Source: a virus. Taken from it: DNA of 64,000 bases. The stretch lies in IMG/VR virus record IMGVR_UViG_3300017987_000001, positions 62,001-126,000 of that record; one strand, written 5' to 3'. The notes beneath the pieces are model-generated. The model did no database searches, was not told the origin of the DNA, and saw only the letters and a list, made by a program, of their open reading frames with translations. The translations under genes were made by a program, and so were the position numbers. How positions within the stretch are numbered: position 1 is the first letter of the stretch; every line of letters begins with the position of its first letter. Shown piece after piece: positions 42,538 to 60,545 of the stretch.

Positions 42538-45534
<2,997 letters not shown>

Positions 45535-46350: not shown

Positions 46351-46695
46351 CTACTTCGCCGACGCGATGAGCGCATCGATGGCCTTGCGGACTCGATCAT
46401 TCCCGACCCGTGCAGCAGCTTCCTTCTCCTGCTGCTCAGTCTTCTGCTGCTGCGCAGCAACCTGCTCGGGCTGGGGGACGCCCAGCGCGGAGCGAAGGTC
46501 GGCTGCAGCCGACTTGGCGAGACCGGCCTTCTGGTTCGCCTCGGCAGCCTTCAGCATGGCCACGCTCTCAAGCGCAGCCTGAAGACTTTCCTGATCGGAG
46601 AACGTGAGACCGTGAGAAGCGCACTTCTGCATGAACGCAGGCAGATAGACCTCTTCAAAGAGGGCAACCTGCTCGTTCCCCGCTTCCTTGTTCAT
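46351..46695 (-). CDS. Helical head-region protein with K-x-A motif (114 aa)
   Basis: A 114-residue helical protein following the capsid gene. MQKCA at residues 22-26 (within YLPAFMQKCASHG) fits the hydrophobic-x-Lys-x-Ala motif seen in other head proteins. The rest is Ala/Gln/Glu-rich (QESLQAALESVAMLKAAEAN, QVAAQQQKTEQQEKEAAARV), suggesting coiled coil or partial disorder. AAGGAG precedes the ATG. Function unknown; capsid-associated by position. Confidence 0.5.
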   Translation of the reverse strand: MNKEAGNEQVALFEEVYLPAFMQKCASHGLTFSDQESLQAALESVAMLKAAEANQKAGLAKSAAADLRSALGVPQPEQVAAQQQKTEQQEKEAAARVGNDRVRKAIDALIASAK

Positions 46696-46711
46696 GGGTT
46701 CTCCTTATGCG

Positions 46712-46742
46712 GGGGAGGGCGGATCGTGTGGGCCGCCCTCCC
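46712..46742 (-). terminator. Hairpin after the major capsid gene
   Basis: GGGAGGGCGG and CCGCCCTCCC pair over ten bases around a ten-base loop, 14 bases past the capsid stop codon. There is no U-run after it on the minus strand, so it may stabilise the capsid mRNA or stop transcription only partly. Confidence 0.55.
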
Positions 46743-46755
46743 TAGCGATTGGGCC

Positions 46756-47670
46756 TTAGATGAAGTCCGCCCGAGCTACCGCCGCGACGTTGGCGACGCA
46801 GGCGCCGATGCTCTCGTACGCGAAGAACTCAAGCATGAACGCCTTGCGGTCGATGTACATCGTGGTGTCTTCGAGAACGTAGAACTTCCCGAGGAACTTC
46901 GGCTCTGCGAACATGAAGATCGTGTTGTCAGGCACGAGGTCGCGCTTGATCGTCACGATCCAGCGGACGCCGAACAGCTCGCGCTCGGCGAAGCCATTCT
47001 GCATCAGCTCCTGCGAGAGGTCGCCACCGACCTCATCGCGGCCCCACTTCACCACGTCCCAGATGGTGACGTTGTTCACGAGCACCGTGGCCGTGTTGAG
47101 GTGGTTCGGGGTGGACGGCATGATCTTCATCGCTTCCGCGATGGTGTCACGCGTCACGCCACCGTTGATCGACTTCCACTGGACGGAGCCGGTCTCGGGG
47201 ACCGCTACGTCCTGCCCAACGAGCAGCGTGTTGAGCGTGGTGATGAACTTGCCGTCCTCTTCGGCCAGCATGTCCTTGATGCTGTTGTCCGACAGGATCT
47301 GACGGATATCCATGTCGTACGTGCGCAGCTCGTCGATGTCCTTCGTGAACCGGGGCGTCATGATCCGGTCGAACATCACGCGGAAGCGCGGCCCACGGAT
47401 GTACCGGTTCATGGGGAGCGTGGCGAACGGCACCGAAATCGCCGCTGGCGACTGCGGTTCCTTGTCCACGATCTTGACCGGCTTGTCGGTGTCGACCTGA
47501 CGATCCAGCTCGTCATTGGTGATCTGCACCGGCGGGATGATCCGACGAAGGAACCCGTCTTCGCGCATCCGCACGCGGATGTACTCGTTGACGGCGTCCT
47601 GCGCGGTCTTCTCCATGCCGCTCTCAACCATGTTGAGGAACGACGCGTTGACTTCCTGAGCAGTAGGCAT
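46756..47670 (-). CDS. Major capsid protein
   Basis: From the ATG at 47670 behind AAAGGAGAG the product has 304 residues. Its N-terminus carries M-E-K-T-A at residues 19-23, the recurring K-x-A motif. Then follow features I recognise from a family of phage capsid proteins: VRMREDGFLRRIIPPVQI, DELDRQVDTDKPVKIVDKEP, SPAAISVPFATLP, RGPRFRVMFDRIMTPRFTKD and IDELRTYDMDIRQIL. The C-terminal part includes NNVTIWDVVKWG and RDLVPDNTIFMFAEPKFLG, then the closing EFFAYESIGACVANVAAV typical of HK97-fold P-loops and A-domain strands. It is preceded by protease, scaffold and decoration-like genes and followed by a hairpin. Confidence 0.8.
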   Translation of the reverse strand: MPTAQEVNASFLNMVESGMEKTAQDAVNEYIRVRMREDGFLRRIIPPVQITNDELDRQVDTDKPVKIVDKEPQSPAAISVPFATLPMNRYIRGPRFRVMFDRIMTPRFTKDIDELRTYDMDIRQILSDNSIKDMLAEEDGKFITTLNTLLVGQDVAVPETGSVQWKSINGGVTRDTIAEAMKIMPSTPNHLNTATVLVNNVTIWDVVKWGRDEVGGDLSQELMQNGFAERELFGVRWIVTIKRDLVPDNTIFMFAEPKFLGKFYVLEDTTMYIDRKAFMLEFFAYESIGACVANVAAVARADFI

Positions 47671-47757
47671 TGAATCTCTCCTTTGTTGCCTAGCTGGGTT
47701 CAAGCAGGTGCTCTACTGGACCTCTACCCGAACCCAGCGCCCTTTCACCCAGCGACG

Positions 47758-47763
47758 ATTATA
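47758..47763 (-). promoter_or_regulatory. Possible -10 site upstream of the capsid gene
   Basis: TATAAT on the minus strand overlaps the stop codon of the decoration-like gene, 88 bases before the capsid ATG. No acceptable -35 hexamer or TG extension is present, so this is only a candidate. Confidence 0.3.
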
Positions 47764-48274
47764 CCGGCTGATAGACCGGCCAGAACGCGAGGAACTTGAT
47801 GTTCGCGTTGTGCTCGCTGTCCGACTGTCCCGAGGACACGACGCCGACGATCGCATCGACGCCGAGCGTCCCCTTCTTCAACTTACCGACGTCGGCGGGC
47901 GTCACGCCACCGTCGTCGACGGTAAGCAGGTCGTTCGGCGCGTAGGTATCCGCGACGAACTCGGTCGACTGCAGCTCGTACGCACCGATCGCGACGAGGC
48001 CCGACCCCTTCTCTCCCGAGATGTTGCCTACGTCCGACCGAACGTCGAAGTCGGTGTAGTTCTGGAAGAGGAAGATCGCCATCGCGCTCGACGCGTTCAG
48101 GCCCATTACGAACTTACCGTTCGCATCGAGGCTCAGAACACGACCGGCGTACGCGTACGTCGTCTCGCCGCTCGCGTACTCCGCCGTGTAGTCCACGGCG
48201 TAGGGCGACGGCCAACCCTTGCGGGGGTTGAGTTCATGATCAAACATCTGTCCCGGTGTGAATGTACCCGGCAT
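47759..48274 (-). CDS. Capsid decoration-like protein (171 aa)
   Basis: A 171-residue protein immediately before the major capsid gene. It opens MPGTFTPGQMFDHELNPRKG and contains AYAGRVLSLDANGKFVMGLN, LFQNYTDFDVRSDVGNISG and GLVAIGAYELQSTEFVAD, a beta-rich pattern of capsid-stabilising or head-decoration proteins (lambda gpD-like genes often hold this position). The end is VGVVSSGQSDSEHNANIKF. Role is inferred from place and composition. Confidence 0.6.
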   Translation of the reverse strand: MPGTFTPGQMFDHELNPRKGWPSPYAVDYTAEYASGETTYAYAGRVLSLDANGKFVMGLNASSAMAIFLFQNYTDFDVRSDVGNISGEKGSGLVAIGAYELQSTEFVADTYAPNDLLTVDDGGVTPADVGKLKKGTLGVDAIVGVVSSGQSDSEHNANIKFLAFWPVYQPV

Positions 48275-48301
48275 GTGTCAATCCTTTCGATCCTGCGCCC
48301 G

Positions 48302-48670
48302 TTACCAGCCGAGCGCTGCGAGGAACTTCTTGTCTGCCTCTTCGCGATCGGCGGAGGCGGCCTTCGTGTGCGTCTCGGCCGTCTTGCCCATCGCCGGAGG
48401 CGTGGCTTCGGCAGAAGCTGCCTTCACGTGCGTCGCGGTGCGACGCAGCGTATCGAGCGCCTTGACATGATCGTCCGTAAGGAGATCAGTCGCGGCCTGC
48501 TTCCGCTCTTCTCCGAGCAGCCCCTTCTGAATCAGGGCGTCGACAGCTTCCGCTGCGACCTTCGCCATCTGCTCGCGGTCGCTAGCCTTCTTCTGAAGCT
48601 GCTCGCCTGCCGCAGCCACGAAGTTGACCATGCGCTGGAGCAGGGCAGGATCCATTGCTACCTTTTCCAT
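48302..48670 (-). CDS. Small helical head protein with K-x-A motifs (122 aa)
   Basis: A 122-residue Ala/Lys-rich helical protein. The motif occurs at the start (MEKVA, residues 1-5) and again at 25-29 (LQKKA); several later HVKAAS or HTKAAS segments are variants. AAAGGG precedes the ATG at 48670; ATG at 48655 is an alternative that would lose the first motif. Lying between scaffold and decoration-like genes, it is probably an internal head or scaffold-associated protein. No family recognised. Confidence 0.5.
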   Translation of the reverse strand: MEKVAMDPALLQRMVNFVAAAGEQLQKKASDREQMAKVAAEAVDALIQKGLLGEERKQAATDLLTDDHVKALDTLRRTATHVKAASAEATPPAMGKTAETHTKAASADREEADKKFLAALGW

Positions 48671-48697
48671 TGTTCAGCCCTTTCTTCCCTGCTGGCC

Positions 48698-50059
48698 TTA
48701 ACCGCGAACCAGCTTGCGAACGGCATCCTTCAATGCCGCCGTGCTGCCCGCTGCTGCCTTCTTCACATGAGCCGCAGGCTTGGCAGCTGCTGGCTTCTCC
48801 TCCGCCATTTCCTCTCCGGCTAGTTCCTCAGCCTCACCAGCGCCCTCTTCGGCACCACCCAGTGCAGCCTCGGCCTCGCCTTCGGATTCCATGGCTTCAG
48901 GACCAGCGCCCTGCGCCTCTGCCACGACCTCGGCCAGCTCTTCGGGCGTGATGCCTGCCTCGTCGAGTGCCTCGGCCAACGCCTCAATGACGGCTTCGTC
49001 ATCGAGCCCCTCGCCGCCCATTTCGCCGCCTTCCCCGCCCGGCATGGCCCCTTCGGGACCACCACCGGCGAGGGCGGCCAGCGCGGCAGGATCCGGAGCG
49101 CCGCCTCCACCCATCATGGCTGCGGGATCTTCTCCCCCACCCATCATGGCTTCGGGACCAGCGCCACCAGCGCCGCCTCCTCCGAGTGCACCAAGGAGTG
49201 CAGCGGGATCTTGTGCTTCCTTCGTACCAGCCTTCTTCTTCAGCTGGCCATGCATGGCCTTCTGATAGCCCTGCATGAAGCCGACGTATGCGTCAGCGTC
49301 CGCCTCGGCCGTCTTCGTGATCTCACCGACCACGGTGGCGTAGACGTCGTCGCTCGCCTGCTTCTGCTGTCCACCGGCGAGGTAGTCGATCAGCATCGAC
49401 GCTGCGACGTAACCGGCCTCCTCGTCCTCGGGGAACTTCTCGGCAGCCTTCTTGTACAGCTCAGCAGAGTCGGCTGCCGCCTGCTTGTCATCCTGCTGAG
49501 CCGCCGGAGGGTCCGACTGCTCGCCCTCCTCCGCCTTCGGTTCTTCAGCCGGAGCTTCAGCGGGCTGCTCGGCCGGAGCCTCCTCGCCTGCTGCCTTCTC
49601 CGTCGGGATGTTGAGGATCTTCGCCATCTCGCCGAGGATCGAGTTCGCTTCACCGATCAGCTGATCGGCGCCGTACTTCGTCTTCGGGTTCGGGCCGACG
49701 GCGGCGTTGCTCGCCATCGAGGGCGTGCTCTTCGGCGTGTCGACATTGCCCGCGCGCGACTCATCCGACGACATGGACTGCGTGCCCATGGTGTCGGTAG
49801 GCTTCTTCGAGTCGCCCGGGGTGTTCTTGCTACCGGACTCTTCGACATTGTTCGGCACGTCCTTGGCGACGTCGGCCGAGTTCTCCGCAGAGCGCTCGCC
49901 TTCCTTCGCAGGCTTCGTGCCGTCATCGACGTTGGCGGACGGATGCGACGACTTTCCGTCGGATGCCAAATCGAGGTTGGCTGCAGACTTCTCAAGCTGC
50001 GCACGCTCGACCATCGCGTCCATCAGCTTGAGGATGTTGCCATTGGTCTTTCCCGGCAT
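48698..50059 (-). CDS. Acidic scaffold-like head protein (453 aa)
   Basis: From ATG at 50059 (GGGAG upstream) the product has 453 residues. The short N-terminus has QLEKSA at residues 21-26, matching the K-x-A motif. About residues 30-130 are polar and disordered; 150-270 include helices (ELYKKAAEKFPEDEEAGYVA, YVGFMQGYQKAMHG); about 290-420 are Gly, Met, Ala and Glu-rich (GGGAPDPAALAALAGGG, LAEALDEAGITPEELAEVVA), and the tail is basic (KKAAAGSTAALKDAVRKLVR). Acidic, helical, low-complexity proteins encoded between protease and capsid usually serve as scaffold or core. A palindrome lies 45 bases upstream of the start. Confidence 0.6.
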   Translation of the reverse strand: MPGKTNGNILKLMDAMVERAQLEKSAANLDLASDGKSSHPSANVDDGTKPAKEGERSAENSADVAKDVPNNVEESGSKNTPGDSKKPTDTMGTQSMSSDESRAGNVDTPKSTPSMASNAAVGPNPKTKYGADQLIGEANSILGEMAKILNIPTEKAAGEEAPAEQPAEAPAEEPKAEEGEQSDPPAAQQDDKQAAADSAELYKKAAEKFPEDEEAGYVAASMLIDYLAGGQQKQASDDVYATVVGEITKTAEADADAYVGFMQGYQKAMHGQLKKKAGTKEAQDPAALLGALGGGGAGGAGPEAMMGGGEDPAAMMGGGGAPDPAALAALAGGGPEGAMPGGEGGEMGGEGLDDEAVIEALAEALDEAGITPEELAEVVAEAQGAGPEAMESEGEAEAALGGAEEGAGEAEELAGEEMAEEKPAAAKPAAHVKKAAAGSTAALKDAVRKLVRG

Positions 50060-50103
50060 GGCACATTCTCCCATTCGTTAGAAGGTCTGGGGCGGTCGCA
50101 GAG

Positions 50104-50125
50104 ATTGTTGAACGCGTTCAACAAT
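50104..50125. repeat. Perfect 22-bp palindrome between protease and scaffold genes
   Basis: ATTGTTGAACG is followed directly by its reverse complement. As RNA it could fold into nine base pairs with a CGCG loop. It covers the protease stop codon and ends 45 bases before the scaffold ATG. Related dyads occur at 20442 and 14256. Confidence 0.7.
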
Positions 50126-51587
50126 TGTAGTTCCTCCGGAGCATGAGCCGGTCTGCGATTCCGCCGTCTGATTCACCTTCTAGCGAGCGAGAGAACGCCA
50201 GTTGGTACGCGACATACTGTTTGGCCAGATAGGCCGCCGCTTTGTTGACGCCCGCGCGCTTCACGTGCGAGACCTTCACGGTCTTCGCAGGACCGCCACC
50301 ACGAATGATGGAGATCTGCACGCGACGACCGACCGGCTCATCCCCGAGAGACATATCGGGAACCATGCCGCCAATCATGTCGCGCACCCGCTTGGGCAGC
50401 AACCCCGCCGCCGGGTCGTATGTCTTCATCCCGGTGACGTCCTCTACCCCATCGCCGCTCGACAGCATGCGGTTGAAGATACCCGGCAACATATCCTCAG
50501 CTTCGGATACGTCACCAGCCACGGAGTCGTACTTGTTGCCAAGTATGAGCCGGAAGAAGTCTTTGATCGGCAAGCTGATCTTCGACTGCGAGAGCGCACC
50601 CATCAACTCGTTCAGATCGCAGCCGCGCATCGTGTCCAGCTGATCGTCCTTCATAGCTGGGCACTCAGCGGCAGCGTCGATCTCCGGGCTGATAGCGCGT
50701 CCCGTAGCCTCGATCTGCTTCTCCATCGCCGCCAAACGCTCCATGGCGGCAAGTTTCTCTTGGACCGGAAGGGGTGACGTGTCCAAGAGCACGTTTGTCG
50801 GGGCAGAGATGCCCCACATCTCGGCGAGCTGTGTGGAGGGAATGAACTCGTCCGGCATGACGCCGTACGCCGCGACCTTCCTCAGGCCGTAGGCGATACG
50901 ATCCGCTGGGCGGAAGACGCCGGAGTAGTCGAAGTACGTCGTCCGGTCGTTGATCGCGAAGACCTGATGACCGGCTGATTTCACGTGCGTCATCTCGTTC
51001 TTGAGATGATCACAGTACTCTTTGCGGCTGGGAGCTTGGTGCCCGCAGATGGAGCACGTGTCGTAAGGAACGCGGCAGCTCATGGAGAATGCTAGGTCTT
51101 CCCCGTTGGCTGCCTTCTCTAGCTCCGGCTCCCATTTGTCGTTCTGAACTTTGATGAGGAGTTCGCCACGACGCATTTCGGGATTGTACGCTTCGGCAAC
51201 GATCTCACCTGATGCTAGGTCCGGATCCTTATTGACGTGATCCTTATAGACCTTCGCGTACTTCGTGAATGTGTTGTGGTATTGCTGTAGGCCGCCATCG
51301 AGGATGCGCGACTTCGGTCCACCCTTCTCTGGCTCGGGGAACTCGAAGCGCGCGCTCTTCTCGTTGAAGCCATCGCCATTTCGGTTTGCGCCATACGACT
51401 CCATGCAACCCATGGAGATCGCATGAATGAAGGAGTGGCCCTTCTCTGGGCGAACCGACGATAGCTCCTTGGTTAGGACGGCGGCGCGCTTGGTCATCCA
51501 ATCACGATCGATCCCACGACTGTGTACGTCGACAAGTCGTGCGATCTGCACATTGGGACCAGCGAATGGAAATACCGTCTTGATCAT
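50118..51587 (-). CDS. Putative prohead protease with zinc-binding insertion
   Basis: From ATG at 51587 (AAGGG upstream), 489 residues. The N-terminal part has HAISMGCMESYGANRNGDGF (about 55-74), a segment I associate with head-maturation proteases of some large phages. KVYKDHVNK (His117) and LAFSMSCRV (Ser168/170) could supply the His and Ser of a herpesvirus/T4-gp21-type serine protease. Directly after comes a probable zinc knuckle, CSICGHQAPSRKEYCDHL (C178, C181, C192, H194). The C-terminal half is helical with KTVKVSHVKRAGVNKAAAYL near the end, perhaps a self-processing region. Location just before scaffold and capsid supports the call; catalytic residues are inferred. Confidence 0.6.
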   Translation of the reverse strand: MIKTVFPFAGPNVQIARLVDVHSRGIDRDWMTKRAAVLTKELSSVRPEKGHSFIHAISMGCMESYGANRNGDGFNEKSARFEFPEPEKGGPKSRILDGGLQQYHNTFTKYAKVYKDHVNKDPDLASGEIVAEAYNPEMRRGELLIKVQNDKWEPELEKAANGEDLAFSMSCRVPYDTCSICGHQAPSRKEYCDHLKNEMTHVKSAGHQVFAINDRTTYFDYSGVFRPADRIAYGLRKVAAYGVMPDEFIPSTQLAEMWGISAPTNVLLDTSPLPVQEKLAAMERLAAMEKQIEATGRAISPEIDAAAECPAMKDDQLDTMRGCDLNELMGALSQSKISLPIKDFFRLILGNKYDSVAGDVSEAEDMLPGIFNRMLSSGDGVEDVTGMKTYDPAAGLLPKRVRDMIGGMVPDMSLGDEPVGRRVQISIIRGGGPAKTVKVSHVKRAGVNKAAAYLAKQYVAYQLAFSRSLEGESDGGIADRLMLRRNYNC

Positions 51588-51609
51588 TACACAAACCCTT
51601 GTGTGCAGC

Positions 51610-51638
51610 ATAGTAATCGGCACACCGGGTTGCGTCAA
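51610..51638 (-). promoter_or_regulatory. Sigma70-type promoter for the protease-capsid operon
   Basis: TTGACG and TACTAT lie 17 bases apart on the minus strand, with an A-rich stretch just upstream of the -35. The -35 is identical to that of the tube promoter. Transcription would start about 16-20 bases before the protease ATG. Confidence 0.55.
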
Positions 51639-51683
51639 TTAGTTTTTTCGTGATGACTAGGCTGCCTGCTCTTCGCAGCGGAA

Positions 51684-52625
51684 CTAGACTGTCGGCCGCG
51701 CCCACGTCGGAAGTTCAAGCGGCTTGCCCTCTTCCGCGTACGCGCGGAATGGATCGAACGAGGGGCGACGAGGAAGCCGCTGCGCCTGCATCGCGCGGGC
51801 CTTCTCGGCGCGCATGAGCCGCGCCATCCACAGGTCAGCCTCGAACTGCCGCAAGCGCTGCTGCAGCTGCGTCTGTGCATCGGCGACAGACGAGCCGCCC
51901 GGACCATACCGAATCCGATTGCCTACGTAGCGTAGGATATCAGGCAGGAACATCGCAGCGATACCGGCAAGCCCACCGCGCTTGAGCGACGATGCGAGCG
52001 GCTTCGAGCTGGCCACGGTCTTCGCGGCTGCACGCATACGCTCGGGAGAAACCTTCTTGAGCGCGGACTGCAACTGAGGTGTCATGGACTTCGTAGCCTG
52101 CGCGAGTCGGCGCTTACGCAGCCACGGCCCAACGACGGGGATACTGTAGAGTCGACTACCGCTTCCCAGTACGTTCGACAGCTCTTTCTTCGAGAGGCCG
52201 GTCTTCGGGTTCGTGAGTGCCTCAGCGAGCGACAGAGTCTTCTTCTTGCCCGCAGCAAGCGTCGGGAGATCGGCACCGCGCAGCGCACCGCTGACAGTCT
52301 CGGCGAGCTGCGACTGCGTCATGGGGGAGAGTGTGCTGTGCAGCCCCCACGGCGTCGTGCGATAACCGTACGCCGCGCCCATACCAGCACCGGCTGCGGC
52401 AAGTCCGGGCATCAGATACTCGCGCGGCGGGTTCTTCTGCGTCTCGCGAATGTACTGAATGCCTTGCGGGATCTCTTCCAAACCACGTCGCAGTCGCCGA
52501 TTCAGCTCGCGCTGCGCATCCTGCGACTGCGTGAGGCTCAGATCTTGCCCAGTCCACATACCGGTCTGGGCTTCCTTCTCCATGCCAAATCGCGCGGCGG
52601 TGAACTTGTCGCCAAGCTCGCTCAT
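51684..52625 (-). CDS. Head-module protein with K-x-A motif (313 aa)
   Basis: ATG at 52625 behind GAGGAG; 313 residues. The start MSELGDKFTAARFGMEKEAQ carries M-E-K-E-A at residues 15-19. A Gly/Ala-rich hydrophobic segment (LMPGLAAAGAGMGAAYGYR) and a later one (GGLAGIAAMFLPDILRYVG) suggest membrane contact. In between are a basic helix-rich part (KKVSPERMRAAAKTVASS) and a small polar domain. The C-terminus is Arg-rich and proline-containing. No family recognised; one of several similar proteins of this module, possibly internal head proteins ejected with DNA. Confidence 0.5.
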   Translation of the reverse strand: MSELGDKFTAARFGMEKEAQTGMWTGQDLSLTQSQDAQRELNRRLRRGLEEIPQGIQYIRETQKNPPREYLMPGLAAAGAGMGAAYGYRTTPWGLHSTLSPMTQSQLAETVSGALRGADLPTLAAGKKKTLSLAEALTNPKTGLSKKELSNVLGSGSRLYSIPVVGPWLRKRRLAQATKSMTPQLQSALKKVSPERMRAAAKTVASSKPLASSLKRGGLAGIAAMFLPDILRYVGNRIRYGPGGSSVADAQTQLQQRLRQFEADLWMARLMRAEKARAMQAQRLPRRPSFDPFRAYAEEGKPLELPTWARPTV

Positions 52626-52626
52626 C

Positions 52627-53604
52627 CTATACTCCTCGTCCACGCGAAATGGCGAGATCCATCATCCGTGCGATGTCTGGATCGTTCGCATACAGATCCA
52701 TAAGCGGATTGCCCTTGCCCTTCACGGGCCGCGCAATAACCTCTTGCAGGAACTTGCGCATACGCGCGATCTCCTCGCGATTGCCGCCGAAGCGTCCGGT
52801 GAGAAGACCAACCCGCTGCGAGAAGTCGAGCGCGGACATCTTGCCACGCGCGAAGTCGCGCTTCAGCTTCGCGAGTCCTTCGAGCTGCGGAGCCGCCTGT
52901 CGGTAGATGTTCAGTCGGTTGGAGATGCGACGACCGAGCGCGGCAAGCGCCATGCGCTGCTCTGGTGTGCGCAGCTGCCCCGCTTCAATGCGCTGAATCG
53001 CATGCTCAACTGCTGCCTTCATATCCACATCGGGCATGACAGCGCGCATCGTACGAAGCCCGCGCAACGCGGCAGAAGGACTGCGGCTCATCAGCTTCTT
53101 CGCCGTGCGCTCGCCCAAGCGTATGCGCCGCTTCCAGCCCTTGCCGCTCGGCAGGACCGACTGCGTGAACTGCTGCACGAGTGACTGTTGCTCTTCCGGC
53201 GTGAAGCGACCGCGCCCAGCGAGAAGTGCTCCGAGTGCGCCTTCCGTCGCGCCCTCGAACACATCACCTTCACCGCTCACAAGTCGTCCGAGTGCGCCTT
53301 GGACCCCCGACTCATACGCCTTGCCGAGCTGCAGTCCGCGCTGAATCGGATTGGCGAGCGCATAGGCTGCCGTCGCGCCGGTGCCAAGACCACCCTTGAG
53401 CGCACCCGCAAGTGTGCCCGAAAGGATATCGCCGCCAGTAAGAAGCGCCTTACCGGCTCCGAGACCAGCGCCAGCCAACCCGCCAACGCCGCCGAGCCCG
53501 AGTGACTTCAAAAGCAGGTTCGGATCGACCTGCGGATCGAACTCGATGTCTTTCGCGTGTGTTGGCTCCGGAGGAAGCGTACCCGGAACAGGCTTCTCGG
53601 GCAT
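52627..53604 (-). CDS. Glycine-rich head-module protein (325 aa)
   Basis: A 325-residue protein. After a polar N-terminus (PEPTHAKDIEFDPQVDPNLL) comes a long Gly/Ala-rich hydrophobic region (about residues 35-90; SLGLGGVGGLAGAGLGAGKA, AGALKGGLGTGATAAYALAN) with many small-residue repeats. The remaining two thirds are helical and basic (WKRRIRLGERTAKKLMSR, RALGRRISNRLNIYRQ-like), ending DPDIARMMDLAISRGRGV. The stop is followed at once by the next gene's leader. It belongs to the glycine-zipper group of this region; function unknown. Confidence 0.5.
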   Translation of the reverse strand: MPEKPVPGTLPPEPTHAKDIEFDPQVDPNLLLKSLGLGGVGGLAGAGLGAGKALLTGGDILSGTLAGALKGGLGTGATAAYALANPIQRGLQLGKAYESGVQGALGRLVSGEGDVFEGATEGALGALLAGRGRFTPEEQQSLVQQFTQSVLPSGKGWKRRIRLGERTAKKLMSRSPSAALRGLRTMRAVMPDVDMKAAVEHAIQRIEAGQLRTPEQRMALAALGRRISNRLNIYRQAAPQLEGLAKLKRDFARGKMSALDFSQRVGLLTGRFGGNREEIARMRKFLQEVIARPVKGKGNPLMDLYANDPDIARMMDLAISRGRGV

Positions 53605-53606
53605 GA

Positions 53607-54077
53607 CTATTCCTTCTGATCAGGCATTGACACCAACGGAAGCTCTTCCGGTTCGGAGACTGACTTCAGGCCCTTCTCAACCTCGACGAGCTGATTGGCC
53701 TCGAACGGCTCCATCGCATCCTGCTGCTGCAGCAGCTTACGCAACTGCCCGCGCATCACAGCAGGCTGCACCGACGAGCGCGGTACGAGCTGTGAAACCT
53801 GATTGAACGCGTCGAGCACCTCGTCCGGATCGTACGTGCTGATCACCGGATCGTTCGCGAGGAAGTCGTTGAGCATCGCCTGCATCTTGATCCTGCGCAT
53901 CTCTGCGTCGTGCGTAGGGTCGAACAGCTCGCCGATCATCTTCTCTTCCGTCTCTTTTGGAGACGGAGGCTTCCCCGCCGTCAGCCGCTTCTTCAGCTCA
54001 CCGGCAACGCTGCCGATACCGACGAGGTCCATAATGCCTGCGTCCTTCTCGAAGAGATCATCTAGTTCGTTCGACAT
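53607..54077 (-). CDS. Head-module protein with LDDLF start (156 aa)
   Basis: A 156-residue protein whose start MSNELDDLFEKDAGIMDLVG combines an LDDLF segment with F-E-K-D-A (residues 9-13), the K-x-A motif. The same LDDLF-x-K segment ends the preceding gene product (DLDDLFVKE). The rest is helical (EMRRIKMQAMLNDFLAND, RGQLRKLLQQQDAMEP). Function unknown; repeated ends suggest a shared docking or processing signal. Confidence 0.5.
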   Translation of the reverse strand: MSNELDDLFEKDAGIMDLVGIGSVAGELKKRLTAGKPPSPKETEEKMIGELFDPTHDAEMRRIKMQAMLNDFLANDPVISTYDPDEVLDAFNQVSQLVPRSSVQPAVMRGQLRKLLQQQDAMEPFEANQLVEVEKGLKSVSEPEELPLVSMPDQKE

Positions 54078-54079
54078 GG

Positions 54080-55249
54080 TTATTCCTTGACGAACAGGTC
54101 ATCCAGATCGTGCGACTTCTTCTCGGAAGCGCCGCACATGCTGTGCGCTGCCGCGACTGCCTGATCCTGTGGCATGCCGTGGTCGCGATTCAGACTGATC
54201 TTCCGGCTGATGCAGTCATCAGTCGACTCGCCCTTACGCTTGTACTTCTTCTTCGCCGCCTTCGCCATGAGCGCGTTGTAGATCTGTCGCACATGCTCCT
54301 CGCGATTGTCCTCAACCAGCGCCGCTTCCTTCGCGTAGCCGTCGAGGCCGTAGCTGATCGCAGCGAGCACCGGTTGCGGCGGCAGACAGCTCAGGTTCAG
54401 CATGGCGTGCTGGTGCTTCACGTGATTGATCGCTGCCGCTTCCTTCAGCAATCGATCGATCTGCTGTGATAGGAAGACCGCCTCCGCGACCTTGTCGTAC
54501 GGCTCGGCCGTGTCATCGTAGAACATCTGCTGCGCGCCGAGATCTTCGTCCGCCGCGCGCTTGACGTGCAGCTTATCCTGTCCGAGGTTGCCGTGCTCGT
54601 AGACCATGTCCATCGCAATCTTACCGAGCGGGCCGAACGTTGCAACCGCGCGCTTCTCGACGAGCGCGAACGGCTCCTTGTTGCTCGTCGAGCGCCAGTA
54701 GGCAGCAGCCTTGTCGAGCGTATCGAAGAAGCGCATGTACACGTGGTGATACGCCTCAAGCGCCTGCTTGTGTAGCTTCTCGATCTTCTCGTGCTCCTGA
54801 ATCGCCGACTTGGCTGTCGCTTCAGGATCACGATCATACGCTGCTGCCTTCTTGTCGGTAAGCGGCGGGAGTTCCTCGACCTTCGCTTCCTTCGACATCT
54901 CCATGAAGTTGACGCGCTGGCCACCCTCGTAGAGAGGATTCAGCGCAGACGCGGCCTTCGTCGCGGGCGTCTCCGGCTCGGCCGGGTAGAGCGCGCCGAG
55001 GATGTTCTCGATGCTCGCGATCGGGAATGTGTCGGCCCGAGTGTCCTCATTCGCGTGCTTCAGGTGCGAGAGCGTCTTCGACACGTTGAACGCCTCGACC
55101 ATGCGCTTGATGATCTCGGGCTGGAACTCGTAGTCATTCGCGACCTTGGTGAGCGCGTCGTCAGGGGTCGAGCCGTCGTTGGCCATCTTCACGGCCTTTT
55201 CGAGAGCTTCAACGATCTTCTGCTCGGTTGCCTTGGGCATATCCTTCAT
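54080..55249 (-). CDS. Helical head-module protein with C-terminal Cys motif (389 aa)
   Basis: A 389-residue mainly helical protein. Short K-x-A-like segments recur along it (LTKVA, MSKEA, LVEKRA, LLKEA, YAKEA). Near the end DDCISRKISLNRDHGMPQDQ followed by AVAAAHSMCG (about residues 345-374) is a small motif with two Cys that I have seen at the C-termini or as separate domains in phage head genes ('C-I-x-x-K-I...Q-A-V-A-x-A-x-x-x-C'). It closes with HDLDDLFVKE. AAGGAG lies before the ATG, which overlaps the end of the preceding gene by four bases. Role unknown, head-associated. Confidence 0.5.
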   Translation of the reverse strand: MKDMPKATEQKIVEALEKAVKMANDGSTPDDALTKVANDYEFQPEIIKRMVEAFNVSKTLSHLKHANEDTRADTFPIASIENILGALYPAEPETPATKAASALNPLYEGGQRVNFMEMSKEAKVEELPPLTDKKAAAYDRDPEATAKSAIQEHEKIEKLHKQALEAYHHVYMRFFDTLDKAAAYWRSTSNKEPFALVEKRAVATFGPLGKIAMDMVYEHGNLGQDKLHVKRAADEDLGAQQMFYDDTAEPYDKVAEAVFLSQQIDRLLKEAAAINHVKHQHAMLNLSCLPPQPVLAAISYGLDGYAKEAALVEDNREEHVRQIYNALMAKAAKKKYKRKGESTDDCISRKISLNRDHGMPQDQAVAAAHSMCGASEKKSHDLDDLFVKE

Positions 55250-56100
55250 TGCTTGCTCTCCTTGCTGACCTCGACGGCTTCAGGCTTCACTTCTTCCTTC
55301 GGGCTGATAGCAAAAATGTTGGACGCATCCGGGAGCATCCTGCGATGCTCCACTGGTTCGATCCTGTCCGTCGTCTTGCGCACGGTGAGTGATACGGCTT
55401 CGAGCAGCGCCGAGATCGAGGCTTCAGCCTGATCCGCGCCGCGCAGGTTGTCGGACTCGGACTCCAGCCGCAGCAGGTCGAGACCCTTACCCATCAGGTC
55501 GACGCTGTTGAAGTTGTTCGGCTGAACCGCGAATGCCGCACTGCGCGCAACCTTGATCACCTGCTCGCGGAACGTGCGCACGATGAAGTCCATCGCCACG
55601 GGCGACACATCGCCGATCTCCCAAACGCTGCGGACTATGTCCCAGCCGCCCTCGTACGCAATCAACTTCCACATGAAGTCCGGATCGCTTGCACGCGCGC
55701 CAGCCGTGAATGCCGGGAGCAGCACGTTCGCCGTGATGCATCCCTTGTGTTCGAGCGCGTCGCGCACGTCGAAGAAGAGCTTCTCGTAGGTATTGAGCAC
55801 CTTGACCTCGGCGTTGAGGTACTCGGCCATGTCTTCGACCGACTGGTTCGCCATGACACCGGCCTCGAAGATCCAGCGCGAGCCAGCCACGTCTTCGAAC
55901 AAGCACTTCGCCTGATGCAGGTCCGGGTACTCGCCCGCCAACATCTCCTCGACACGCGGATCATCACGCCGATAGCGACGAAGGTAGCGCCACGCCCGCG
56001 TGACGAACGTGTCGTCACGCGACCGACGGGGTGGGAGCTTCTTCTCGATCAGCTCCTTCGCCCGCAGCCATCGCCATCGTGGTGATTGGTTGAGTTTCAT
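55246..56100 (-). CDS. HTH-like protein of head module (284 aa)
   Basis: A 284-residue protein, ATG overlapping the previous TGA (ATGA). Basic start (SPRWRWLRAKELIEKKLPPR), then FVTRAWRYLRRYRRDD. About residues 82-118 (ANQSVEDMAEYLNAEVKVLN, TYEKLFFDVRDALEHKG) resemble a helix-turn-helix unit in which an 'eeIAeyl...pevv..YE.lFFDVR' pattern is familiar from phage and bacterial proteins. The C-terminal 60 residues are polar and likely disordered. A DNA-binding role is plausible, for example in packaging or regulation, but I cannot call it a small terminase on this evidence. Confidence 0.5.
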   Translation of the reverse strand: MKLNQSPRWRWLRAKELIEKKLPPRRSRDDTFVTRAWRYLRRYRRDDPRVEEMLAGEYPDLHQAKCLFEDVAGSRWIFEAGVMANQSVEDMAEYLNAEVKVLNTYEKLFFDVRDALEHKGCITANVLLPAFTAGARASDPDFMWKLIAYEGGWDIVRSVWEIGDVSPVAMDFIVRTFREQVIKVARSAAFAVQPNNFNSVDLMGKGLDLLRLESESDNLRGADQAEASISALLEAVSLTVRKTTDRIEPVEHRRMLPDASNIFAISPKEEVKPEAVEVSKESKQ

Positions 56101-56297
56101 ACCTTCATAGCCGGACGCGTGATGAGGTCCGTCCTTTCGAAGTTCCGGCGACGGTGATTGCTGCGCATGCCGTCACGGCGCGGGATGAGCGCCGACGGCT
56201 CCTTGCTGAGCGGCTCCGCCGCACAGCCCAGTGCCGCTCGCTTGAGCAGCCCGAGCTGATATCCTATATCATAAGCTACGTTAGTCTCCACCGCCAC
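56097..56297 (-). CDS. Small protein with K-x-A motif (66 aa)
   Basis: A 66-residue protein; GTG at 56297 lies in the last codons of the preceding gene, and its TGA overlaps the next ATG. The start reads MAVETNVAYDIGYQLGLLKR then AALG, so L-L-K-R-A (17-21) repeats the motif of other head proteins; the preceding 'G-Y-x-x-G' resembles the start of the gene at 60545. The rest is basic (RRDGMRSNHRRRNFERTD). Its overlaps at both ends support it as real. Function unknown. Confidence 0.5.
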   Translation of the reverse strand: MAVETNVAYDIGYQLGLLKRAALGCAAEPLSKEPSALIPRRDGMRSNHRRRNFERTDLITRPAMKV

Positions 56298-57609
56298 CCC
56301 CCAGCAGCCGCTGAATCAGTGCGATCGCCAGAAGCGTGCCGAGCGTGAGACCGCCGCCTCCCACGAGCTTGCTGATCGTCGGATCGTCCGACCACTTACC
56401 GAGGGTCGACCGTGCACCTTCCCAGCCCATGCCACCGAGCAGGTCGCCCAGCCCGGACATGCCGGTGCTGCCGACATCGCCAAGGAAGCCGCCAAACTGC
56501 CCAAGATCGCCGAAGCCGGACCCACCTGCAGCGCGGGCGTTCATGATCTGCGCGACCTCGGGGCTGGCCATGGTCGTAGGCGCTGCGCCGCCCTCAAGCA
56601 GCTTGGAGAGTCCGTAGCCGCCTCCAAGAACGCCAGCGGCAGCGCCGCCGCCGTACTTCGCCTTCTGCCACGGCGTAAGCCCGCCCCACCACTGGGCAGC
56701 CCCTCCGGGCGCAGCTGCGGCCTGAAGCACGGCCTCAGGGACCGGCGCTCCAGCGATGGTTTGCAGCGTAGGGTCTGCTGTCCCCACGCGGGTAGCGGGA
56801 CCGCTAGGTCGCGCCTGCCGTCTGGTCACTTTGGGCGATTGAAACTTCCGCCTCGGCTTTGGCGTTGGCTTCGGCTTCGCTTTCCCGCCAAAGATGCGCG
56901 ACCAGCCCTCGCGAAACTTCTTGGTGCTACCCACCATCGCGCGTCCAGCAGCTTCCTTGGCCGTCTCGTTCTCGCTCGTCTTCGGCTCGGGCTTCTTCTC
57001 CGGAGCCTTCTTCGGCTTCTCGTCCGACGCGGATTCGAGCTTCTCGACACCCGGCTTCGTCGGCTTCTGTGTTTCCTTCGACTTCGTGTCGCGCGTCACG
57101 TCGTGGATGCCACCGATCTTGTTCAGCACGTTGCGCACGCTCGCCGTCGTCACCTTCGGAGGCGTCGCGGGAGCTGCCTTCGCGGGCGTCATCTTCGGCA
57201 TCGCCGCGAGGCCGCCCGGCGGACCCTTCGGAGTGGCCGTCGGCTTGGGTGCAGGCGGCTTCGGTACTGCCGGAGTCTTCGGAGCTGCCGCAGGAGCGGG
57301 CTGTGCGGGTTGCGCCGGAGGCACAGCGCCTGCGCTCATCTTCTCAAGTGCCTCATTGATAGCCGAGGCCGAGACGTTCAGCCGTCGTGGGGCGTTCGTG
57401 CTCAGGTTCAGCTGAGGGACCATGCCCTTGGTCGGGCCGCGTGCAGGAGGAGCGTTCTCAATAACGCGAGGGCGCCCGGGGCCGCGTACCGTACCGGCAA
57501 TCGCGGGCACCGACGTGTTCTTGGTCGCCGGAACGGTCGTCTTCGTAGCCTCATCCGCCTTCTTGGTGAAGGCATTGACGAGTACGCGACGTGCCTTAAT
57601 CAGATCCAT
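56281..57609 (-). CDS. Pro/Ala-rich head-module protein with glycine-rich end (442 aa)
   Basis: A 442-residue protein with ATG behind GAGGAGG. It begins MDLIKARRVLVNAFTKKADE, F-T-K-K-A at residues 14-18 being the recurring motif. Residues 20-280 are Pro/Ala/Lys-rich and likely disordered (PAQPAQPAPAAAPKTPAVPK, KAKPKPTPKPRRKFQSPK). The C-terminal 140 residues are Gly-rich and hydrophobic, with GGGAAAGVLGGGYGLSKLL, LGQFGGFLGDVGSTGMSGLG and a last helix (GLTLGTLLAIALIQRLLGG). Member of the glycine-zipper group. Disordered basic part plus membrane-like end would suit an internal head protein released with DNA, but this is inference. Confidence 0.5.
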   Translation of the reverse strand: MDLIKARRVLVNAFTKKADEATKTTVPATKNTSVPAIAGTVRGPGRPRVIENAPPARGPTKGMVPQLNLSTNAPRRLNVSASAINEALEKMSAGAVPPAQPAQPAPAAAPKTPAVPKPPAPKPTATPKGPPGGLAAMPKMTPAKAAPATPPKVTTASVRNVLNKIGGIHDVTRDTKSKETQKPTKPGVEKLESASDEKPKKAPEKKPEPKTSENETAKEAAGRAMVGSTKKFREGWSRIFGGKAKPKPTPKPRRKFQSPKVTRRQARPSGPATRVGTADPTLQTIAGAPVPEAVLQAAAAPGGAAQWWGGLTPWQKAKYGGGAAAGVLGGGYGLSKLLEGGAAPTTMASPEVAQIMNARAAGGSGFGDLGQFGGFLGDVGSTGMSGLGDLLGGMGWEGARSTLGKWSDDPTISKLVGGGGLTLGTLLAIALIQRLLGGGGGD

Positions 57610-57880
57610 CGTTTTCCTCCTCAGCGACAGCGGAGACCTTCGCGATCAGATCCATGAGAGGAACCTGATACTCCGGGTCATCCTCCAGCAGTTTACGCTC
57701 GTTCCGAACGTGATCGGCCAGCTCGGAGTAATCACGAAGCAGCTCATCTGCCGCTTCCGCCATGTGCCCCATGCACAGCCAGAAATGCTCCGGGTACCCC
57801 TGCTTCGACTCGTGCAGAAGGATCTCCGCCTGTGCGAGATGCTTCCGTGCGCAGTTCAGGCAACTCGGGCGCATAGTCAC
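57596..57880 (-). CDS. Small CxxC protein (94 aa)
   Basis: A 94-residue protein, GTG at 57880 overlapping the previous TAG by one base (ATG at 57874 is an alternative). It has SCLNCARKHLAQAEILLHES, then YPEHFWLCMGHMAEAADELL, and a helix to the end. CxxC with nearby Cys and His residues could bind zinc. 'C-x-x-C-x-x-K-H-L-x-x-A' at the start is, as I recall, a recurrent phage small-protein pattern, of unknown function. It overlaps the next gene by 14 bases. Confidence 0.55.
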   Translation of the reverse strand: MTMRPSCLNCARKHLAQAEILLHESKQGYPEHFWLCMGHMAEAADELLRDYSELADHVRNERKLLEDDPEYQVPLMDLIAKVSAVAEEENDGSD

Positions 57881-59358
57881 TAGAACCCTACCGTGGTCTC
57901 TGAACCCTTGTGCGCCTCAAGCAGCTCCTTCGTCAGATCTTCCGGCGATGCCTTCTCTACAGGCCCGCGCGTTGACTTCTCGCCCTTCTGCGCCGGGAAA
58001 TGCATCCCCTGCTGCTGCTCCAGTCGCTGATTGAGCTGCTTGATCAGCGCCTTCTGCTCCTCTGGCGTCATCGCGTTGATTTCGTCCATCGATGGCATTC
58101 CCGCCGATTCCGAGATGGACGTTTCTGCCTCCGCCTTTGGCGGCTTCTTCGGACCGGCAGGCTCATCGTGCTGCTTTGCCGCGCCCGGAGGTGCAACTGT
58201 CGCAGCCTCTGCAGCCTCGGCACGACCAGCGACCGACTCTTCTGCCGCTGGCGCTTCTTCCGGTGCCGCCTTCGGTGCTTCTTCCGCAGGAGCCTCACCA
58301 GCGCCCTCGCCCCTGCCCTTGAGGTAATCATAGAGACCATAGCCGCCCGCGCCAACACCAGCACCGGTCAGGATGCTGAGCAGGAAGTTGCGCTTCCGCT
58401 TTGCCGCCTGCTCGGGCGTCTCATCCTCACCGCCACCGAGCATGCCGGGAAGCCCGGCAAGAAGTCCAAGGCCGCCACCGAGTCCACCGCCGACCAGATA
58501 CGGTCGGATCTTCTGCAGCAGCCCGCTCCAGTCGAGCGCGCGCTTCACCATGCCGAGCTTCGCGCCGACATCGAACGCGGTCTTGGGGTCCATGTTGTGG
58601 CTCGCATTCTTCATGAGTTCACGAACGAGAATCGGGAGGCCGCCCATGGTGCCTGCGCCGAGCGCACCGCCACTCAACGCTGCGATAAGTGGCACGCCGT
58701 ACGACTGGAAGTTCGTCGGCGCGAGATCTTGGTAGAGCGCCTCTTGCCGCGCGGGGTCATCGGGATGCGAGAGCGCTGCCTGCCGTCGCGCGCGTGCCTT
58801 GTTCTCAGGAACACTGAGCGCGGTAAGGCCGCCCAGTCCACCCGCACCGAGAAGCGCACCAATGATCGTGCGGCTCGTATCATCCTCCAGCAGCTTACCG
58901 ATATCGAGAGCTTTCTTTTGCATAGGTACTCCAGCTGACTGAGACTTCCCAAACAACTCCGGCAGCTTCTCCATATGGAGGCGAAGATCCGTCTTGTCCC
59001 CGAAATCGGGAAGCTCTGGGACATTCGGAAGCGGGTACATCGGTCCCGTTCCCATCGACTCTCGGAAGCGCTTCACCCAGCTGAGATCCTTGAGCGGCTG
59101 CACTGCCTTGTCAAAGCCGCCACCGGCCAGATACCCACCGCCGATACCAAGCCCCGCCCCAGCAAGGATACCAGCAAGGTCACCGGCAGACATCTGATCA
59201 CCATGGAACTTCGCCATCTGCTCGGCGGCTTCCGGATTATCCCGGAGAATCTCCTTGATGCGTTCTCGATTCTGCTTGCGACGACGATGCACGAGATACG
59301 TCATCAGCCCAGCGCCGCCAACGCCGCCGAGAAGTGCTCCCAGATTCTCAGACTTCAT
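57880..59358 (-). CDS. Large glycine-zipper head-module protein (492 aa)
   Basis: A 492-residue protein with several Gly-rich hydrophobic segments: GALLGGVGGAGLMTYLVHRR (7-26), DLAGILAGAGLGIGGGYLAG (61-80), TIIGALLGAGGLGGLTALSV (about 164-183), and PYLVGGGLGGGLGLLAGLPG (about 293-312), then LSILTGAGVGAGGYGLYDYL. Between them are polar loops; M-Q-K-K-A and M-V-K-R-A occur at about 149 and 274. The C-terminal 140 residues are Ala/Glu/Pro-rich and disordered, ending GSETTVGF. Multiple glycine-zipper segments suggest an oligomeric membrane-inserting protein, e.g. part of a DNA-ejection conduit; no homolog known to me. Confidence 0.5.
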   Translation of the reverse strand: MKSENLGALLGGVGGAGLMTYLVHRRRKQNRERIKEILRDNPEAAEQMAKFHGDQMSAGDLAGILAGAGLGIGGGYLAGGGFDKAVQPLKDLSWVKRFRESMGTGPMYPLPNVPELPDFGDKTDLRLHMEKLPELFGKSQSAGVPMQKKALDIGKLLEDDTSRTIIGALLGAGGLGGLTALSVPENKARARRQAALSHPDDPARQEALYQDLAPTNFQSYGVPLIAALSGGALGAGTMGGLPILVRELMKNASHNMDPKTAFDVGAKLGMVKRALDWSGLLQKIRPYLVGGGLGGGLGLLAGLPGMLGGGEDETPEQAAKRKRNFLLSILTGAGVGAGGYGLYDYLKGRGEGAGEAPAEEAPKAAPEEAPAAEESVAGRAEAAEAATVAPPGAAKQHDEPAGPKKPPKAEAETSISESAGMPSMDEINAMTPEEQKALIKQLNQRLEQQQGMHFPAQKGEKSTRGPVEKASPEDLTKELLEAHKGSETTVGF

Positions 59359-59366
59359 GCGTATCT

Positions 59367-59382
59367 CCAGACAGGCAGGCAG
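59367..59382. repeat. Left arm of 16-bp inverted repeat around a small gene
   Basis: CCAGACAGGCAGGCAG here is the exact reverse complement of 59824-59839. The two arms lie in the short gaps on either side of the gene at 59389-59802. Confidence 0.75.
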
Positions 59383-59388
59383 TGCCTG

Positions 59389-59802
59389 TTATATCTTCTC
59401 GACCGTCTTACCGGCGTCGTTCATCACATACGCCGGAGACACAAAGGCTACAAGCTGCTCAGCGCCGTTCGCTTTGTGCAACACCGCAACATGAATCGGC
59501 TTGCGGAGCGCTCCGTGCGACTCGAAGATCTCACCCGCGTACAACGGGTCCACAAGCAGATCGTGCTTGTTATCCGGTCCTCCGATGTCCACCCCAAGCA
59601 GGATTGGTACACGCTTGGCTTTCGGCGGAGCGTTCGGATCATTCGACTGCGGTTCGTCCTGCTCCCATTCGTACAAGGCAAGCTGTGTGTTCGGGTCGCC
59701 GATCTCGCCAAAAACCCCGAGCCACATCTTGCCCAACTCGACCTTGTCCGACTCGTACATCACCCAACGGCTCGTGTTGTAGTCTACCGTCTTCAGAATC
59801 AT
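59389..59802 (-). CDS. Small protein of unknown function flanked by inverted repeats (137 aa)
   Basis: A 137-residue protein: MILKTVDYNTSRWVMYESDK, VELGKMWLGVFGEIGDPNTQ, a polar loop (QSNDPNAPPKAKRVP), then ILLGVDIGGPDNKHDLLVD and ALRKPIHVAVLHKANGAEQL. Predicted as a soluble mixed alpha/beta or beta domain without membrane segments or the K-x-A motif, unlike its neighbours. A perfect 16-bp inverted repeat flanks it, so it may be an inserted accessory gene. I do not recognise the family. Confidence 0.5.
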   Translation of the reverse strand: MILKTVDYNTSRWVMYESDKVELGKMWLGVFGEIGDPNTQLALYEWEQDEPQSNDPNAPPKAKRVPILLGVDIGGPDNKHDLLVDPLYAGEIFESHGALRKPIHVAVLHKANGAEQLVAFVSPAYVMNDAGKTVEKI

Positions 59803-59823
59803 GACTGCCTGCCTTCTATCTGT

Positions 59824-59839
59824 CTGCCTGCCTGTCTGG
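59824..59839. repeat. Right arm of 16-bp inverted repeat
   Basis: CTGCCTGCCTGTCTGG, exact reverse complement of 59367-59382, placed between the stop of the gene at 59841 and the ATG at 59802. A further CTGCCTGCC lies closer to the ATG. Confidence 0.75.
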
Positions 59840-59840
59840 A

Positions 59841-60545
59841 CTACTTGAGCGCTATCGGGTCTAGCGCGGTACGAACGTTCGTTGCAATGTTCTCAATACC
59901 CTTTCCGACACCATAACCGAGCAGTCGGCCGCCACCGTAACCAAGCGCGCCGTAACCAAGCCCCTTCAGCGGCACACCGATGAGATCCTTCCAGACTGGT
60001 CGGCGCACCTTAGAGTACAGCGCTTTGGCTCGCGCCTTGTCGCCGCCGCTCGCAATAAAGGCCATACGCCGATCAGCTTTCCGTCGGCTAAGTGCGTGCA
60101 TCAGCGCGGCAAGAAGTCCGTAGGTTCCGGCCACTCCACCATACAACTTGCCGGTACTCTGCGACATGCGAGTACTAAGCCGCTCAGGAACAGGACGCAG
60201 TTCGGGTTCGGGCTTGGGCGCGGCTGGTGCGGCTGGTGCGGGCGTACCAGCCTCAGCGGACTGGGAGAACATCGCTTTTAGCGCATCCAAGTATCCGCCA
60301 TCCGGAGCGAGCTTGTCTTTGTAGATTGCAGGAGTGAGTGCAGTGCCGCCGAGACCGCCTACCGCACCGCCGATCATTGCGTTGCGTAGGATCTTCGAGA
60401 GCTTGTCCTTCTTCGAGAATAGGCCAGTCAGCGCGCCAAGCCCGGCACCCCCGAGCGTCGTCATCAACGGGATGCTCGATGGGTTGATCTCCGCGCGCTT
60501 CGTGAGTCCAACCATGTAGCCGAGCGCGATCGCTTGATTCGACAT
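59841..60545 (-). CDS. Glycine-zipper head-module protein with K-x-A motif (234 aa)
   Basis: ATG at 60545, five bases after AAGGAG, gives 234 residues (a GTG two codons upstream would lie inside that site). The start MSNQAIALGYMVGLTKRAE has L-T-K-R-A at 14-18. Gly-rich hydrophobic segments follow (TTLGGAGLGALTGLF, MIGGAVGGLGGTALTPAI, GLGYGALGYGGGRLLGYG). Between them is a Pro/Ala stretch (AGTPAPAAPAAPKPEPE) and a basic helix. Same general build as the other glycine-zipper proteins of the module. Function unknown. Confidence 0.5.
   Translation of the reverse strand: MSNQAIALGYMVGLTKRAEINPSSIPLMTTLGGAGLGALTGLFSKKDKLSKILRNAMIGGAVGGLGGTALTPAIYKDKLAPDGGYLDALKAMFSQSAEAGTPAPAAPAAPKPEPELRPVPERLSTRMSQSTGKLYGGVAGTYGLLAALMHALSRRKADRRMAFIASGGDKARAKALYSKVRRPVWKDLIGVPLKGLGYGALGYGGGRLLGYGVGKGIENIATNVRTALDPIALK

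Follow-up and report, generated by a model that had tools for sequence, protein, structure and literature searches.

A Lys-x-Ala Motif in Phage Head Proteins as the Probable Cleavage Site of the Prohead Maturation Protease

Introduction

Why does the same short motif recur in phage head proteins that are otherwise unrelated? The question is raised by a 64,000-base stretch of viral DNA, positions 62001-126000 of the 207,857-base IMG/VR record IMGVR_UViG_3300017987_000001 (hereafter the window, to which all positions refer unless given as genome positions). Its tail block extends to ~46 kb and is followed by a head block (46-63 kb), with genes on the minus strand nearly throughout. An initial annotation had noticed a hydrophobic-x-Lys-x-Ala motif near the N-terminus of proteins encoded at 46351-60545 and had proposed either the cleavage site of the maturation protease or a signal targeting proteins into the prohead. 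The pattern is indeed found in that region, but it runs on to a protein of 780 amino acids (aa) ending at 62897 and recurs upstream in the genome. Judged from sequence comparison, the motif Phi-x-K-x-A (Phi = L, F, M, I or V) is most probably the recognition site of the prohead maturation protease, which would cut after the Ala; we put the probability of this reading at roughly 85%.

The comparison is based on 36 distinct relatives with 350 head proteins. The capsid protein has at least 80 IMG/VR relatives among the matches listed, with 59-78% identity, while the nearest cultivated or named phages by this protein are Salmonella phage Arash (31%), Vibrio phages D69, D181 and D148 (30%) and Bacillus phage G (26%). 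The protease likewise has kin in Arash, the Vibrio phages and phage G, with mycobacteriophage proteases being more distant. Gene starts were taken from a simple caller built for this analysis, not from a trained gene finder.

Enrichment, Spacing and Conservation of the Motif

Motif copies were counted with Phi-x-K-x-A and also with the narrower [FLM]xKxA. The latter occurs 36 times in the 18 head-block proteins of the window, compared to 6.6 copies expected from composition-preserving shuffles (maximum of 15 in 1000). Nine of the 18 carry it within the first 30 residues (0.8 expected; maximum of 5 in 1000 shuffles), in line with the earlier estimate that composition would predict less than one such N-terminal match. 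All copies listed at the time are present, namely those in the capsid, scaffold, 114-, 313-, 156-, 442-, 66-, 234- and 122-aa proteins, and so are those within the 780-, 492- and 389-aa proteins (seven, three and ten, respectively). The motif is not restricted to N-termini, as had been supposed: copies in the protease (residues 31-35, 235-239 and others) and most internal ones in the scaffold had been missed, and the many conserved internal copies rule out a strictly N-terminal motif. The 41 tail-block proteins contain eight copies of [FLM]xKxA for 6.0 expected, none of them within the first 30 residues. The FAKKA of a 316-aa protein in the baseplate block (6056-7006), formerly counted as a member of the set, falls within chance.

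The spacing of the motif is exact. With Phi at -2 and Ala at +2 around Lys, 46 copies are found in the head block of the window, against 3-25 at all other spacings. In the 350 head proteins of the relatives these numbers are 849 and 130-560, while the corresponding matrix for their tail genes is flat (72-124). As the Ala +2 column is raised throughout in the relatives' head proteins, K-x-A is the core of the motif. The excess at the exact spacing is repeated in D69 (38 versus 2-16) and Arash (41 versus 6-22) and is weak in the head region of phage G (25 versus 7-20). An extension to the Bxz1/E3/Stormageddon group, with its more distant proteases, was tried and abandoned, the enrichment not being clear (16 versus 4-14). 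Near residue 14, capsid proteins of the Bxz1 group (L100, L101 and L102) do contain FAKASD or VAKASD, which may be a related site spaced differently.

Conservation follows the same division between head and tail. When conserved Lys columns of aligned families were scored for an Ala shared by at least 60% of the sequences at a given offset, 30 of 67 such columns in head families had Ala at +2 and 0-5 at the other offsets tested, whereas none of 40 columns in tail families did. Among orphan head-block proteins of the relatives, 35 of 86 have the motif in their first 35 residues (4.8 expected; maximum of 13 in 300 shuffles), although some of these, placed alike in gene order, probably represent a single fast-evolving gene; for orphan tail proteins the proportion is 14 of 211 (8.3 expected). 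The residue directly after the motif Ala is also constrained. Pro is nearly lost from this position (5 observed, 35.1 expected), with Ser and Glu enriched 2.3- and 2.5-fold, and these biases are mostly absent when Ala stands at other distances from Lys. Gly and Pro are depleted around the motif Lys, with Pro returning to normal a few residues beyond the Ala.

The Protease and Its Flanking Motif Copies

The head block encodes a candidate for the enzyme that would act on this motif:

50118..51587, minus strand: prohead (maturation) protease, 489 aa, with fold matches to annotated prohead proteases and phage G gp19
51483-51497 and 50871-50885: protease motif copies at residues 31-35 and 235-239, bracketing the catalytic domain
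Further protease motif copies: residues 107-111, 156-160 and 447-451

A search of BFVD with the predicted structure retrieved phage G gp19 (E 2.8e-9) along with entries named prohead (serine) protease (E 6e-5 to 1e-3), and the sequence matches the PHROG family of head maturation proteases phrog_18299 (E 0.005). A profile search of the PDB with the protease alignment gave no match, and a Pfam search with the family yielded no more than two weak hits, each by a single member and to an unrelated family. The order protease (50118-51587), scaffold-like protein (48698) and capsid protein (46756) is the same in relatives. H55 and S168, presumably the catalytic His and Ser, are invariant in 29 proteases, and so are K33, A35, K237 and A239; the domain holding H55 and S168 is flanked on each side by an invariant K-x-A. 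The C-side copy lies within a segment of low model confidence (231-245; below 50) that links the catalytic domain to a helical C-terminal domain, a second low-confidence linker being found at about 430-447. The N-side copy has the same place in Arash and D69.

A 348-aa open reading frame at L014:13602-14648 looks like a fusion of a protease-like stretch (NRNGD) with the N-terminal stretch of a capsid-like protein that does not have the K-x-A site; an intact capsid gene with this site is present as well.

The Capsid Protein and the Cut in Phage G

46756..47670, minus strand: major capsid protein, 304 aa, matching phrog_2522 (major head protein, E 5.5e-8) and related to phage G gp27
47602-47616: capsid motif MEKTA↓Q at residues 19-23, with Q24 as predicted mature N-terminus (here and below, arrows mark a predicted or deduced cut)

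K21 and A23 of the capsid protein are invariant in 34 relatives, where they follow about 20-30 variable residues. Arash and D69 have LVKEA or LTKEA at this site, which would put the mature start of the Arash protein at residue 30. The rest of the protein is poor in K-x-A, with five occurrences over 35 sequences compared to 33.2 expected (shuffle minimum of 19). In the models, the N-terminal motif copies of both capsid and protease fall in predicted helices, the capsid model being of low confidence (mean of 63.5).

The homologous capsid protein of phage G has 282 residues, of which 255 constitute the mature protein, marked as determined by N-terminal sequencing (PMC5646251). If all removed residues are N-terminal, the cut follows Ala27 (EEGRVALA↓QAMANPIR). 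In seven out of eight multiple alignments this Ala shares a column with the motif Ala of the window (MEKTA↓QDAVNEYIR), and it is one residue off in the eighth. In the PDB entry of gp27 (6wkk), the chain comprises 280 residues with numbering from the start, and the mature start is not apparent from the entry.

Other Head Proteins

Two further families are particularly dense in copies, the scaffold-like protein ("scaffold" being deduced from gene order and composition) and the 389-aa head protein. The remaining proteins carry N-terminal copies, internal copies or both:

48698..50059, minus strand: scaffold-like protein, 453 aa; copies at residues 22-26 (LEKSA, window 49982-49996), 201-205, 202-206, 247-251, 273-277 and 432-436
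54080..55249, minus strand: 389-aa head protein; 10 copies
53607..54077, minus strand: 156-aa protein; FEKDA at 9-13 (window 54039-54053)
60555..62897, minus strand: 780-aa head protein; seven internal copies, at 181, 197, 229, 545, 575, 598 and 611
51684..52625, minus strand: 313-aa fast-evolving head protein, a lineage orphan by BLAST; MEKEA at 15-19 (window 52569-52583)
48302..48670, minus strand: 122-aa protein; copies at 1, 25, 35 and 94; conserved columns K27 and K77
46351..46695, minus strand: 114-aa protein; copies at 1, 22 (MQKCA, 22-26), 47 and 59; K24 conserved in 88% of the family
56281..57609, minus strand: 442-aa protein; FTKKA at 14-18 (window 57556-57570)
56097..56297, minus strand: 66-aa protein; LLKRA at 17-21 (window 56235-56249)
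59841..60545, minus strand: 234-aa glycine-rich protein; LTKRA at 14-18 (window 60492-60506)
57880..59358, minus strand: 492-aa protein; internal copies at 146, 248 and 270

Across their families, the scaffold-like, 389-aa and 780-aa proteins contain 118, 215 and 95 copies, compared to 27.8, 37.3 and 21.6 expected, respectively. In the 389-aa family the K-x-A positions form islands in variable surroundings. A PHROG search with the scaffold-like protein gave no match. The MEKVA at the very start of the 122-aa protein (residues 1-5), singled out by the initial annotation, does exist, but the conserved copies of this protein are internal. In relatives, the 389-aa and 156-aa proteins form one protein of about 430-470 aa, the latter corresponding to its C-terminal part; the split between them (window 53607-55249) lies near a conserved motif column. 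In the tail block, a 998-aa protein (42538-45534) contains a long collagen-like repeat, GPTGDPSxIT.

Taken as a protease site, the motif would imply the following maturation scheme. In the prohead, the protease would free itself by cutting the copies on either side of its catalytic domain. About 20-30 residues would be removed from the capsid protein as an N-terminal propeptide, both scaffold and 389-aa protein would be cut to peptides at their many copies, and short N-terminal propeptides would be trimmed from a set of fast-evolving internal proteins.

Motif-Rich Proteins outside the Head Block

Genome-wide shuffles pick out the head-block proteins plus one distant gene (genome 42681-43814, plus strand), which encodes a 377-aa DUF6582 protein with eight motif copies. 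It is conserved in 21 out of 23 relatives, and six of the seven conserved Lys columns of its family have Ala at +2, a few sequences being truncated. We predict that it is a head-internal protein. In Arash, six of the seven motif-enriched proteins are annotated as structural, compared to 56 of 215 overall, including one at 174466-175335, far from the head block.

Copies are also found in the fusion of the beta and N-terminal beta-prime subunits of an RNA polymerase (1832 aa; genome 135427-140925, minus strand), which lies upstream of the window in the genome. By gene order and analogy with phiKZ-like phages, this polymerase may be packaged in the virion. Its motif copies at residues 308, 506 and 605 precede a core that starts near 616. 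In most relatives, residues corresponding to about 7-235 are joined directly to 616-1830, so that about 375 residues constitute an insert in this phage. Between FAKAA and LVKSA, the insert comprises a 2H phosphoesterase domain (366-467; below the Pfam cut-off), which in other relatives may be a separate gene, as suggested by weak matches. Extra domains within the putative virion RNA polymerase occur in four phages, this one included, and motif copies stand between them wherever the domains are clear. The insert of relative G001 (G001:C1:131500-135000) has a SET or SET-like domain (331-372), a HAD-like stretch (413-482; below the Pfam cut-off) and a 2H-SAK domain (583-683), and its motif copies at 270, 398/403, 522 and 707 provide one at each module boundary. 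The probability of this linker placement is 9e-5, which is indicative only, as the domain limits were drawn by eye. Relatives G002 and G003 carry other versions of the insert. A further insert downstream in the G001 subunit looks like an intein (weak Intein_splicing match), as does an RNA polymerase insert in G003 (G003:C1:63200-66700, minus strand), which ends in VCGGLIVHN before T.

Tentatively, and at somewhat less than even odds, the maturation site may serve as a general release signal, with the beta subunit of the virion RNA polymerase as a cargo carrier. SET-like, HAD-like phosphatase and 2H phosphoesterase modules, inserted at one point with Phi-x-K-x-A between them, would enter the head together with the polymerase; the prohead protease would release them, possibly for injection into the host.

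Weighing the Explanations

The protease-site reading is supported by several features: the invariant copies that bracket the protease catalytic domain, the single invariant N-terminal copy of a capsid protein in whose body K-x-A is under-represented, the density of copies in scaffold-like proteins, the scarcity of Pro at the position following the Ala, the mature N-terminus published for the phage G homolog and the copies at domain boundaries of the RNA polymerase insert. The motif could instead act solely as an uncut prohead-targeting or scaffold-binding peptide, like the capsid targeting sequence of T4. Its N-terminal place in many otherwise unrelated head proteins, as in the relatives' head orphans, and the helical context of the capsid and protease copies would suit such a role. 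Targeting alone leaves the internal and domain-boundary copies unexplained, however, including the ten in the 389-aa protein and those on both sides of the protease domain, and it does not account for the exclusion of Pro after the Ala or the measured phage G cut at the aligned position; we deem it improbable. Targeting and cleavage may also be combined, which would extend the protease-site reading instead of competing with it: the N-terminal segment would direct the protein into the prohead and would subsequently be removed at the motif. A length of about 10-30 residues matches the capsid targeting sequences of T4 (PMC5694885), and such an additional role would be compatible with the data. 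Nonetheless, conserved sequence upstream of the motif is not established and internal copies cannot serve as tags of this kind, which leaves the combination at nearly an even chance.

A helix motif kept for folding, for instance in a coiled coil or at a capsid contact, would fit the depletion of Gly and Pro around the Lys and the helical context in the models. The flanks vary freely around K-x-A in the 389-aa family, however, Pro is normal again a few residues past the Ala and copies of the motif stand between domains of the RNA polymerase insert, so a purely structural role seems very improbable. A compositional artefact has the least standing, with a negligible chance of being correct. Head proteins rich in Lys and Ala do raise the baseline, as is visible in the shuffles, but composition-preserving shuffles and spacing controls exclude this origin, and the exact-spacing enrichment is found in four sets (the window, the IMG/VR relatives, Arash and D69).

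Several points weigh against cleavage at the motif. K-x-A cutting in this clade is so far a prediction from sequence, and the shuffle counts overstate independence, as the relatives share ancestry. The phage G capsid site (R-V-A-L-A↓Q) has Ala, not Lys, two residues before the cut-site Ala, and pairwise alignments of this region are less sharp than the multiple ones, the motif Ala falling mostly on residues 25-30 and most often on 27 or 26. The protease copies at 107-111 and 156-160 are conserved inside the catalytic domain, where cutting might inactivate the enzyme; the former aligns with a stretch of the fold without Lys in Arash and may be coincidental. Finally, a few K-x-A (e.g., LGKIA) persist in the core of RNA polymerases from other relatives, where they are probably uncut.

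Comparison with Known Maturation Systems

The prohead proteases of T4, phiKZ, 201phi2-1 and SPN3US cut after Glu (PMC5694885). In SPN3US the site is A-x-E, preferably preceded by Val and followed by Ser (PMC10052503). The system predicted here resembles that of SPN3US gp245 in its short consensus, whose two fixed positions are separated by one residue, and in the preference for Ser after the cut (PMC10052503, PMC5694885). Propeptides at the N-termini of many head proteins, a protease that cleaves itself and repeated sites in propeptides are also shared, all of these being predictions in our case. It differs in that the fixed residues are Lys and Ala instead of Ala and Glu, with a predicted cut after Ala, and in having sites on both sides of the protease catalytic domain and a separate scaffold-like protein with several copies. 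As the conserved motif ends in Ala, the protease is not assigned to the Glu-specific subgroup of T4, phiKZ and SPN3US. We know of no K-x-A consensus in T4. T4 would share with the predicted system its short N-terminal propeptides, which in T4 are 10-20 residues long and act as capsid targeting sequences on head proteins, internal ones included; its protease, by contrast, cuts after Glu (PMC5694885).

Phage G is the closest point of reference, with a homologous capsid protein (gp27), whose cut-site Ala27 aligns to the motif Ala, and a homologous protease (gp19), which has LVKTA near the N-terminus and LEKVA/LLKIA near the C-terminus. Its portal protein contains MAKQA. Its capsid site nevertheless lacks the Lys and the motif is only weakly enriched in its head region. 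Assemblin, the S21 protease of herpesviruses, cuts after Ala before Ser. The resemblance in fold is weak (Epstein-Barr virus and pseudorabies virus proteases at E 0.5-1.8 in a Foldseek search of the PDB, probability up to 0.28), and PDB searches gave no significant fold or sequence match of the protease to a solved structure. No report of a K-x-A prohead site was found in a limited literature search, with most subscription journals outside its reach. The predicted Lys/Ala specificity is new. The logic of the maturation system is that of the known ones, with other residues.

If true, the inserts in the RNA polymerase would represent natural cargo loading into a capsid by a protease-cleavable fusion; no cultivated relative examined is known to carry them. 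If the motif is indeed the protease site, head-packaged proteins, such as the DUF6582 protein, would be findable anywhere in a genome by motif enrichment, and the protease family, in which the giant-phage members studied so far are Glu-specific, would gain a Lys/Ala specificity. In a large group of phages with genomes of about 200 kb, most of them uncultivated, the mature ends of head proteins would then become predictable from sequence.

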